A stretch of 64,000 bases of DNA from Jatrophihabitans telluris (GTDB lineage: Bacteria > Actinomycetota > Actinomycetes > Mycobacteriales > Jatrophihabitantaceae). Every line of letters begins with the position of its first letter. Position 1 is the first letter of the stretch. Shown one piece after another: positions 7,376-58,652 of this stretch. Below the pieces are notes generated by a model that saw only the letters and a list, made by a program, of their open reading frames with translations, was not told where the DNA came from and made no database searches. The position numbers and the translations under genes were made by a program. Location of the stretch: the NCBI RefSeq assembly GCF_023516435.1, contig NZ_CP097332.1, positions 2,294,001 to 2,358,000 on the forward strand, in the 5' to 3' direction.

Positions 7376-8773
7376 CTAGCTCGGCGAGTAACGAGCGGCG
7401 AAGAGCAGCTTGATGTAGCTGGTCAGGACCGCACCTGGATCGGCGCTTCCGTTCGAGCACAGTTTCAGCGCAACCCACTTGGAGCCGCTGAGGTAGCGCC
7501 CGACCGTGTAGGACTGGCAGCCAGGACGAGCAGCCAGCGCATAGACGTGTACGGCGGTGCTCGGTGAGGCAACCGGGGTCGCTCCGCTCTGGCGCTCCGT
7601 CATGATCTGACCGACGACCGCGGTGCGGGCTTTCGCCGCACTGGCGCAGGGGAAGGCGGCCAGAGTCAGCGTCCATTTCGCGGTCGCGTCGGCGATCGAC
7701 TGCACCGGACCCTGGGTGGCTCCGCAGGACTGCAGGGCCGCCGTCTCGCCGGCGTCGGTCGCGCCCTGACCCAACGCGCCCTGCATGGTCCGGACCCCGT
7801 AGGCGGTGGTCCTGGCCGGGCCCGCGGGCGCGACGAGGCTGGCGGCCGGGGCGATCGTTTTCGACGGAGCCGACTTCGGAGAGCTCGGCTTCGTCGAAGG
7901 GCCAGGCGTCCGGGCCAGGCTCGTGGAAGTCGCGGTCGCGCGCGCGGTCGCGCTGGGCCGTGAGGCGCTCGGCGACGTGGAGCTCTGGGTGAGCGCCACG
8001 CCGACCGCGATGGCGATCAACAGGACCAGCACGACCGCGCCGGCCGCGATCAAACCGCTGCGTCCCGGCCCTCGGGAGCGGTTGGGGTCCCGTCGCGGCG
8101 CGGGCTGGGACGGGGGCTGGGACGGGGGCTGGAACGAGGGCTGGGACGGGGGCTGGAACGAGGGCTGGAACGAGGGCTGGGACGGGGGCTGGGACGGGGG
8201 CAGGTACGGAGGCGGCGGGCTTGAGTCAGGCTCAGGCCCGGGAAGCCGGGGCAGTACCCAGGTCTCGTTCGTCGCGGCGGCAGCGGGCAGGTCCAGCGCG
8301 ATGGCACCAGGGCTGCCCGGCGGCGGTGGCGCGTCGCCGGTGGCCTGCTGAACCCAGGCCGGGACAGCGAGGTCCAAGTCGTCGACCGGGTCCAGGGGCT
8401 CGTCCACAGGTACGGGAATCGCGGTGCCCGGGCGGTGCTCCCACGGCGACGGTGGGGCGGCAGGAGTGAGGGCCTCGGGGGCCGGAGGTTCAGAAGCCGG
8501 AGGTTCAGAGGCCGGAGGTTCAGAGGCCGGAGGTTCAGAGGCCGGAGGTTCAGAGGCCGAAGGTTCAGAGGCCGAAGGTTCAGAGGCCGAAGGTTCAGAG
8601 GCAGGGGCGCCCGACGCGAGCGGCTCACGGCCCGGCACCGACCCGGTCGGGTCACTGTTACCGGAGGGCTCCGGCGGAAGAAGCCGTGCGCGGAGCTGAA
8701 AGTACTCGGGCAACCGGAGCTCGCCGCGCCGCAGGCGTTCGTCCAGCTCGTGCAGCTGCTCCTGGCTGTCCAC
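7376..8773 (-). CDS. Repeat-rich single-pass membrane protein with SHOCT-like N-terminus
   Basis: Function not recognised. From GTG 8773 the protein has 465 residues. It has a short helical N-terminus (LHELDERLRRGELRLPEYFQ, SHOCT-like), a long Pro/Ser/Glu-rich region with two tandem-repeat tracts, one membrane helix (LIAAGAVVLVLLIAIAVGVAL) and an extracytoplasmic Ser/Thr/Ala linker. It ends in a C-terminal domain with four Cys that may form disulfides. The start choice rests on AGGAGG seven bases before GTG 8773. The frame stays open to 8935, but no comparable ribosome site is seen there. It runs directly into rarA. It could be a cell-surface sensor or anchor; this is inference from topology. 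Confidence 0.75.
   Translation of the reverse strand: MDSQEQLHELDERLRRGELRLPEYFQLRARLLPPEPSGNSDPTGSVPGREPLASGAPASEPSASEPSASEPSASEPPASEPPASEPPASEPPASEPPAPEALTPAAPPSPWEHRPGTAIPVPVDEPLDPVDDLDLAVPAWVQQATGDAPPPPGSPGAIALDLPAAAATNETWVLPRLPGPEPDSSPPPPYLPPSQPPSQPSFQPSFQPPSQPSFQPPSQPPSQPAPRRDPNRSRGPGRSGLIAAGAVVLVLLIAIAVGVALTQSSTSPSASRPSATARATATSTSLARTPGPSTKPSSPKSAPSKTIAPAASLVAPAGPARTTAYGVRTMQGALGQGATDAGETAALQSCGATQGPVQSIADATAKWTLTLAAFPCASAAKARTAVVGQIMTERQSGATPVASPSTAVHVYALAARPGCQSYTVGRYLSGSKWVALKLCSNGSADPGAVLTSYIKLLFAARYSPS
8102..8209. repeat. 12-bp tandem repeat, about nine units, inside the membrane-protein gene
   Basis: Units of the form GGGCTGGGACGG, with a GGGCTGGAACGA variant, run head to tail in frame. 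On the minus strand they encode a Ser-Gln-Pro / Phe-Gln-Pro tract (PSQP and PSFQP blocks) just before the membrane helix. The period is a multiple of three, so copy-number change would alter length without a frameshift. Confidence 0.9.
8481..8600. repeat. 15-bp tandem repeat, eight units, inside the membrane-protein gene
   Basis: Eight consecutive 15-bp units (GCCGGAGGTTCAGAG, with GCCGAAGGTTCAGAG variants in the last three) encode repeated EPPAS / EPSAS pentapeptides on the minus strand. The near-identity of the units at DNA level indicates recent expansion. Confidence 0.92.
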
Positions 8774-38764: not shown

Positions 38765-38945
38765 GCAACAAGGGCAACCTCAACGTCCGTACGGGTGCAA
38801 CAAGGGCAACTTCAACGTCCGGACGGGTGCAACGAGGGCAACCTCAACGCCCGGACGCGCGCAACAAGGGCAACCTCAACGCGTGGACGGGTGCAACAAG
38901 GGCAACCTCAACGCCCGCACGCGCGCAACAAGGGCAACCTCAACG
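38765..38945. repeat. 32-bp-period direct repeat array, six units (locus A)
   Basis: A 21-bp core that begins GCAACAAGGGC and ends CCTCAACG starts at 38765, 38797, 38829, 38861, 38893 and 38925, exactly every 32 bases. Units 2 and 3 each differ by one base and the rest are identical. The 11-base spacers vary around two types (CGTGGACGGGT/TCCGGACGGGT and CCCGGACGCGC). The array fills the gap between the peroxiredoxin and the HIT gene. The last core contains the HIT stop codon. The same core with the same period recurs at 52513-52620. Confidence 0.95.
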
Positions 38946-52512: not shown

Positions 52513-52620
52513 CGTTGAGGTTGCCCTTGTTGCACCCCCACCCCCGTTGAGGTTGCCCTTGTTGCAAGCAACAAGGGCAACCTCAACGAGCCGACCCGAG
52601 CAACAAGGGCAACCTCAACG
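52513..52620. repeat. 32-bp-period repeat, two inverted plus two direct units (locus B)
   Basis: The 21-bp core of locus A occurs at 52513-52533 and 52545-52565 in reverse orientation and at 52568-52588 and 52600-52620 in forward orientation. Within each pair the starts are exactly 32 bases apart. All four cores are identical to the locus A consensus. The two inner cores are separated by only two bases (AA), so they make a perfect 21-bp inverted repeat. It fills most of the gap between the IclR gene and the mod operon. Confidence 0.95.
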
Positions 52621-58603: not shown

Positions 58604-58649
58604 GTTGACCAGTTGGCGAAGCTCGCGTTGACCAGTTGGCGAAGCTCGC
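58604..58649. repeat. Perfect 23-bp tandem duplication
   Basis: Two identical 23-base copies (beginning GTTGACCAGTTGG) lie head to tail at 58604-58626 and 58627-58649, three bases before the CapA stop codon. It probably arose by slippage or recombination in the 3' spacer. Confidence 0.9.
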
Positions 58650-58652
58650 GCC

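Follow-up and report, generated by a model that had tools for sequence, protein, structure and literature searches.

Tandem arrays of a short site at gene borders in the Jatrophihabitans telluris chromosome: a putative family of multi-site DNA-binding arrays

Introduction

Short repeats that lie between genes take several described forms. REP and BIME elements are placed between convergent genes. MIRU are intergenic, tandem elements of 40–100 bp with a TGA-containing insertion site, and their whole units are homologous between loci. The STRR of cyanobacteria are head-to-tail heptanucleotides, and the Sal-box/TTF-I arrays of rDNA are polar, multi-site, protein-bound terminators. Excerpts of two papers describe the REP, BIME and REPIN sequences of E. 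coli and Pseudomonas as hundreds of short extragenic units, some near stop codons, some in tandem together with their flanks, and some forming inverted doublets (PMC3116915, PMC12306157). In the same excerpts REPIN units are singlets or doublets, with the doublet as the proposed replicating unit (PMC3116915).

The arrays considered here were followed up from two loci, A and B, in a 64-kb window of the Jatrophihabitans telluris chromosome (the window being the whole stretch of DNA analysed, 64,000 nucleotides). Their common element is a 21-nt core, GCAACAAGGGCAACCTCAACG, separated from the next by an 11-nt spacer. Pattern searches covered the whole genome, a single contig of 4,193,897 bases (4.19 Mb), while finer counts come from a sample of 80 spaced 20-kb stretches plus the window, together 1,664,000 bases or 39.7% of the chromosome. 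Gene borders were taken from a home-made gene caller, and all placement counts rest on it.

The dispersed intergenic repeats that bacteria carry as REP-like elements are palindromes linked to a known transposase, whereas the site described here, present at about 550 copies, is not palindromic. Like REP/BIME/REPIN sequences, the family comprises hundreds of extragenic units, some at stop codons, some in tandem and some in inverted doublets, and, if overlaps of 6 nt with stop codons are set aside, all 42 clusters in the sample lie outside genes. Unlike them, its unit is not an imperfect palindrome, it has no singlets at up to two mismatches and only one doublet among the 42 clusters, and it combines one fixed spacing with spacers that are mostly specific to their locus. 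A search of the genome for a RAYT transposase (Y1_Tnp, PF01797) gave 0 matches, the same search being positive in 5 of 14 control genomes. The arrays share with MIRU an actinobacterial host, a tandem intergenic arrangement at gene borders and an overlap with stop codons, the TGA of the core serving as the stop at 13 gene ends. They differ in that only 21–24 bp are common to the loci, most of what remains of the unit being specific to its locus: between loci the spacers are 39% identical against 34% by chance, with similar pairs slightly in excess. In the Sal-box/TTF-I arrays, too, oriented sites of about 20 bp stand in rows immediately past genes; the analogy is one of layout only, with a different domain of life, and a third of the AACG ends here face gene starts. 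The 32-nt unit with its 21-nt core also differs from the heptanucleotides of STRR. Among the papers listed by a literature search, titles and abstracts showed no comparable repeat family, which is no proof of absence, subscription papers being mostly outside its scope.

The two arrays of the window

The features of the two loci are collected in Table 1. The six-fold 21-bp core at an exact 32-base period that the earlier note had described for array A is confirmed, with units starting at 38765, 38797, 38829, 38861, 38893 and 38925. The core is exact in four of the six units; unit 2 carries a single C to T change and unit 3 a single A to G change. The five spacers are, in order, tccgtacgggt, tccggacgggt, cccggacgcgc, cgtggacgggt and cccgcacgcgc, and they do not alternate strictly between two kinds, as had been proposed. 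Array A fills the gap between the convergent peroxiredoxin and HIT genes. It was regarded as non-coding, which holds for the array as a whole and fails only for the six bases that close its last unit, where the HIT gene has its final Arg codon and its TGA. A repeat search found no inverted pairs within array A, and it contains no terminator-like site, that is, no G+C-rich hairpin followed by a T run as in an intrinsic (Rho-independent) terminator. An Rfam scan of the 64-kb window returned 0 families at the gathering score.

Table 1. Arrays A and B and their flanking genes, in window coordinates.
Feature	Start	End	Strand	Remark
Peroxiredoxin gene (AhpC-TSA)	38308	38757	+	Convergent left neighbour of array A; stop 7 nt from the array
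Array A	38765	38945	+	Six direct units of the 21-nt core, 32-nt period, 11-nt spacers
Last core end of array A	38940	38945	-	Minus strand CGTTGA, final codon CGT and stop TGA of the HIT gene
HIT-domain gene	38940	39413	-	Convergent right neighbour of array A
IclR-type regulator gene	51740	52498	+	Stop 14 nt ahead of array B
Array B, left half	52513	52565	-	Two reverse units (52513-52533, 52545-52565)
Array B, centre	52565	52568	.	C-AA-G, a CnnG element; overlap of two opposed 24-nt extended sites
Array B, right half	52568	52620	+	Two forward units (52568-52588, 52600-52620)
HTH_17/TOBE gene	52700	53125	+	Start 79 nt past array B by the home-made gene caller

The core does recur at 52.5 kb, as had been stated, in another arrangement: array B is not a direct array and consists of two reverse units followed by two forward units about a 2-base centre. 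Its left spacer, acccccacccc, is nearly reconstructed from the left flank (caccccacccc). Long inverted pairs were found only between the opposed units, and the array folds as a very long hairpin, but one without the T run of an intrinsic terminator. In the list of open reading frames the HTH_17/TOBE frame begins at an earlier TTG, at 52547, within the array. Both arrays of the window lie near the replication terminus, which cumulative GC skew places at about 2.3 Mb, with the origin at about coordinate 0.

Copy number and distribution

The core occurs about 550 times in the chromosome, with 283 forward and 270 reverse matches (553) at up to three mismatches, while the reversed pattern gave none on either strand of the same chromosome at the same threshold. 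A chance duplication of two loci, the outcome that the earlier note had named as fatal to its proposal, is thereby excluded. An exact dimer pattern with 9–13-nt spacers finds 127 + 123 dimers genome-wide. At up to five mismatches the sample contains 203 units (103 plus, 100 minus) in 42 clusters of at least two units, and 189 of the 203 have at most two mismatches. A further 20 hits stand alone, 17 with five mismatches, one with four and two with three; no lone site with two mismatches or fewer was found in the sample. The clusters hold two units (1 cluster), three (10), four (12), five (6), six (4), seven (6), or eight, nine and ten (1 each), so that 41 of the 42 have at least three, in a range of 3–10. 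Extrapolated from the 42 clusters in 40% of the chromosome, the family numbers roughly a hundred arrays.

The arrays are spread unevenly, with 6, 9, 4 and 23 sampled clusters in the four quarters of the chromosome. Within the last quarter, which holds the 23 of 42, five arrays stand within about 12 kb at 4,154,604-4,166,716. Units show no replication-strand bias (93 of 203), and core variants are not significantly shared between neighbouring arrays (10 of 22 near pairs, p = 0.16).

Anatomy of the unit

At fifteen positions of the core, 199 or more of the 203 units agree. The variable ones include position 6, mostly A or G (118/80), and position 15, mostly C or G (158/44). Constraint extends beyond the core: G stands at the third spacer position past GTTGC in 37 of 44 runs, which corresponds to C at core position -3 (153 of 203 units), and the consensus of the extended 24-nt site is CNNGCAACRAGGGCAACSTCAACG. 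The site is asymmetric, and by eye GCAACAAGGGCAACCTCAACG could form at most a 4-bp internal stem, which is broken by variants.

The period of about three helical turns pointed out for array A is tightly kept in the sample, since 130 of 145 same-strand spacings are 32 nt, the others being 31 (12), 33 (2) and 63 (1). Spacings of 21–22 or 42–43 nt do not occur among the 145, which suggests a protein–protein distance rather than helical phase alone. Where the strand changes within a cluster, it does so from minus to plus in all 16 mixed clusters, GCAAC end to GCAAC end. The centres of these changes measure 2 nt in 10 cases and 3, 13, 13, 14, 18 and 33 nt in the others, and the exact pattern with a 2-nt centre is found at 21 places genome-wide. 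The 2-nt centre of such opposed pairs (GTTGC-nn-GCAAC) can be understood because each core supplies the outer CnnG base of the other. The ten three-unit clusters read +++ (5), --- (1), --+ (3) and -++ (1); the minimum of three units thus applies irrespective of strand, which points to duplex DNA as the acting form.

Placement relative to genes

The arrays stand at gene borders. Among 41 classifiable clusters, 17 occupy convergent, 18 co-directional and 6 divergent gaps; convergent gaps are over-represented, 16.5% being expected from gap counts (p = 1.4e-4). The two ends of the array behave differently. Of 26 one-strand clusters, 22 have their AACG end closer to a gene than the other end (p = 0.0005). 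AACG ends with a neighbouring gene (n = 57) face the 3' end of that gene in 39 cases and a gene start in 18 (median 62 nt). All but two of the 39 lie within 23 nt of the gene, with a median gap of 4 nt, and 13 reach 6 nt into the gene, the core's own TGA serving as its stop codon. GCAAC ends (n = 26) are divided equally, 13 toward gene 3' ends and 13 toward gene starts. One-strand clusters in co-directional gaps have their AACG end toward the 3' end of the upstream gene in 8 cases and toward the 5' end of the downstream gene in 5, and polarity relative to transcription is weak and not clear.

Flanking proteins, chosen around arrays near gene starts, were compared with Pfam; 17 of 20 belong to a family and 3 to none, and genes with an array just upstream include those of nitroreductase, tRNA-editing and abhydrolase proteins. 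Strong hairpins are found in none of 14 convergent gaps with arrays, as against 16 of 128 without, and in 1 of 8 '--' gaps with arrays, as against 12 of 262 without; that arrays stand in for hairpins is only suggested by these counts. On the gene-sense strand, spacers of 3'-facing arrays are rich in C and poor in G (0.54 and 0.20), compared with 0.42 and 0.31 in 5'-facing spacers and 0.36 and 0.33 in the 60 nt past 582 other stop codons. The spacer C/G contrast gives a Fisher p of 0.013, on pooled counts back-calculated from fractions and with bases that are not independent. The 12 nt ahead of the first unit in 3'-facing runs, taken with the spacers, have the same composition on that strand (C 0.53–0.54, G 0.20).

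Origin of the spacers and growth of the arrays

Within a run, adjacent spacers agree at 90% of their bases (87 pairs), compared with the 39% between loci (907 pairs) and the chance value of 34%, which is calculated from pooled base composition. The flanks indicate where these spacers come from. Tandem duplication of a piece L-core-R would place the start of R and the end of L between the two cores; each spacer was therefore compared with the start of its own 3' flank joined to the end of its own 5' flank, at any breakpoint. Such a mosaic accounts for at least 80% of the spacer in 21 of 49 runs (2.2% of mismatched pairings), for at least 90% in 14 (0.4%), and for the whole spacer in 5 (none). 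The breakpoints vary from locus to locus. In about four runs in ten, then, the spacer arose when 32 bp of flank and core were duplicated in tandem; 28 of the 49 runs, array A among them (73%), fall below 80%. Many arrays have grown in place from one core, each reaching 32 bp.

A few arrays may have been copied between loci as whole units, to judge from their spacers. The spacer gggcccacccc is common to the arrays at 1,481,089 and 4,159,659, 2.7 Mb apart. Locus pairs with at least 8 of 11 equal spacer bases number 36, against a mean of 20.6 in column shuffles (reached in 0.4% of them), and there is no excess at 9 of 11 or more (4 against 3.7).

Duplication at 32 bp implies either that some machinery measures this length or that selection keeps it. 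Selection for the 32-bp geometry is favoured, because the breakpoints vary and departures of ±1 are tolerated. The core is likewise constrained: neighbouring units differ at 100 of 3024 core positions and at 94 of 924 spacer positions, a three-fold lower rate in the core, which becomes 52 of 2736 when the two freely variable positions are left out. Per run (n = 34), divergence of the core is lower in 21, higher in 10 and equal in 3 (Wilcoxon p = 0.002); pooling gives a Fisher p of 5e-15, which treats the data as more independent than they are. Unequal exchange would homogenise core and spacer alike, and the difference therefore requires the core either to be under selection or to be actively copied. 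Conservation of the core could thus stem from active copying rather than selection.

Relatives and databases

Among the genomes searched, the family has so far been found in the genome of Jatrophihabitans telluris alone. No array was found in 8 congeners. Of 396 genomes from the phylum, one, that of J. telluris itself, has the exact dimer pattern (0 of the 395 others), and the pattern was absent from a genome collection of 84,980 species, from which the own genome may be missing, and from viral contigs. A BLAST search of array A against plasmids and phages gave weak partial matches only, none covering 80%. With a degenerate core and up to two mismatches, 17 of 60 relatives had one or two matches and none of the 8 of the same genus had any. 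With two positions free and three mismatches, each of the 8 congeners yielded 5–20 hits, compared with 1–6 for the reversed control; core-like single sites are thus somewhat commoner there than in the control, and no two of the listed places are close together. The search of the genome and its relatives for which the earlier note had called therefore brought hundreds of further copies in the one and no conservation in the others.

The congeners were also scanned for another tandem family of their own. In 400 kb from four of them (G001–G004), no local-repeat 12-mer was common to at least three loci, as against 64 in the J. telluris sample; of these only G002, with 220 kb and five or six arrays expected at the density seen in J. 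telluris, is a fair test, the 100 kb of G003 and the 40 kb each of G001 and G004 being too small.

All 8 congeners keep at least the HIT gene, yet arrays were found in none, and the arrays are therefore not essential there. Beside HIT stand an EF-G-like gene in G004 and G006, a transglycosylase gene in G007, and bcp followed by pgsA in G005, in each case without an array. The earlier note had placed array A at a synteny break, with a three-gene block and the array between HIT and pgsA. Since the block varies within the genus without arrays, and parts of it adjoin HIT in congeners that lack them, this argument falls; the sample moreover holds 40 further clusters elsewhere in the chromosome.

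In G004 and G006, the 3' end of HIT is followed, in the place of the array, by a perfect 24-bp hairpin and then by the EF-G-like gene. This hairpin (from 1966 of the locus pieces) continues into TTTT in G004 and ATTTT in G006, and resembles a bidirectional intrinsic terminator. In G005 the HIT-bcp gap separates the same convergent pair without an array and contains, by eye, an imperfect repeat of its own, CGGCCATCGCGGCCAAACTGCCAGC, at a distance of about 27 nt.

Interpretation

The copy number, the scarcity of lone sites, the spacing, the gene-border placement, the orientation rule and the lower divergence of the core are direct observations, as is, for some four runs in ten, the derivation of the spacer from duplicated flank. 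We would put at about 0.5 the probability that the arrays are rows of DNA sites at gene borders to which a protein would bind, with a layout like that of BIMEs but neither REP nor CRISPR in kind. Cooperative binding to duplex DNA is favoured because the three-unit minimum is blind to strand, the distance between sites is fixed, the site is constrained and the arrays stand at gene borders. A binding array for a regulator or nucleoid protein was among the readings first offered for array A, and as a putative function it fits best of these. A candidate sequence-specific protein would bind the site as duplex DNA, and contacts between neighbouring bound molecules, at a set distance, would make a row of three or more sites necessary. 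An array would begin as a single site beside a gene, local duplication would follow, and only the 32-bp geometry would be kept. What the bound row might do can be proposed only tentatively, by analogy, and with considerable doubt: it might form a gene-border element that blocks or ends transcription leaving the gene, as a roadblock terminator or insulator, or tether the nucleoid in a BIME-like manner. The 18 of 57 AACG ends that face gene starts speak against a pure terminator. If a protein does bind the arrays, one lineage has gained a set of chromosome-wide gene-border sites that its congeners lack.

An alternative possibility, doubtful but the most serious of the rivals, is a selfish or passive short element. 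A putative recombinase or copying enzyme would plant the 21-nt core at stop codons, slippage would amplify it, and the core would be conserved through recent active copying, with no function for the host. The presence of hundreds of near-identical cores in one genome only is in keeping with such an element, as are their uneven spread over the four quarters, the spacer common to two distant arrays, the supply of a stop codon by the core at 13 of 39 ends, and an orientation that follows the nearest gene end and is not clearly tied to transcription; excerpts on Pseudomonas REPIN clusters likewise describe tandem units that include flanks (PMC3116915). A jumping 21-mer should, however, leave lone copies, and there are none at up to two mismatches and one pair among 42 clusters. 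Spacing stays constant although duplication breakpoints vary with the locus, and core and spacer differ three-fold in divergence even though they belong to one duplicated unit. No transposase was found in the genome by a search limited to the Y1/RAYT class. The earlier suggestion of a small transposable element could hold for the arrival of the core at new places, while many arrays, by their spacers, grew where they are. If no protein binds the arrays, they represent a new mode of short-repeat spread. The arrays preserve the marks of their own origin, so both alternatives are directly testable.

It is also conceivable, though unlikely, that a species-specific array-writing system is at work. 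A putative protein, perhaps guided by a nucleic-acid template, would set a 21–24-nt address beside genes in fixed orientation and multiply it in 32-bp steps, copying the local flank, to at least three sites; the result would be a new genome-wide set of gene-border elements (terminator/insulator or anchoring) acquired since the split from the congeners.

Less likely still is an RNA element of mRNA 3' ends, in which the sense transcript, (CGUUGAGGUUGCCCUUGUUGC + C-rich spacer)n after the stop codon, would load Rho, affect stability or be recognised by an RNA-binding protein. The 39 of 57 AACG ends that lie toward a gene 3' end at a median of 4 nt would agree with this, as would the high C and low G content of spacers on the sense strand in 3'-facing arrays. 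An element read as RNA should nevertheless not count both strands jointly toward its three-unit minimum, face gene starts with 18 of 57 AACG ends, or be in sense orientation in only 8 of 13 one-strand clusters of co-directional gaps. The frequent G at core position 15 interrupts the hairpin that a unit might form, GAGG-UUGC-CCUU, and other variants weaken it. A structured RNA, another of the first readings, is for this strand independence disfavoured too, as well as for a core that is hardly self-complementary and the lack of an Rfam family in the window.

A CRISPR-like array or an ordinary minisatellite (VNTR) without sequence-specific role, suggested by regular direct repeats of constant period with spacers and by 2–10 copies depending on the locus, can be dismissed as highly improbable: the 11-nt spacers are alike within arrays and many derive from their own flanks, the opposite of the unique foreign spacers of CRISPR, which the earlier note had also rejected, no cas genes adjoin the two window arrays (their neighbours being the peroxiredoxin, HIT, IclR and TOBE genes), and in an ordinary minisatellite 42 sampled clusters whose spacers are mostly unrelated would not have a single 21-nt core in common.

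Other observations

The G variant of the core matches a stretch of 16S rRNA, GCAACGAGCGCAACC, at 14 of 15 bases (L213, 1503-1517). This is probably a coincidence, as the mismatched base is invariant; the match of the G variant is equalled by 9 of 2000 shuffles and by 0 of 225 other 3-kb pieces, and that of the commoner A variant by 248 of 2000 shuffles. Two further repeats occur in the window. A 15-bp unit, GGCCGGAGGTTCAGA, is repeated in tandem at 8480-8602 (8.2 copies at 97%) and is possibly coding, and GTTGACCAGTTGGCGAAGCTCGC is an exact 23-bp duplication at 58604-58650, with a period that is no multiple of three.
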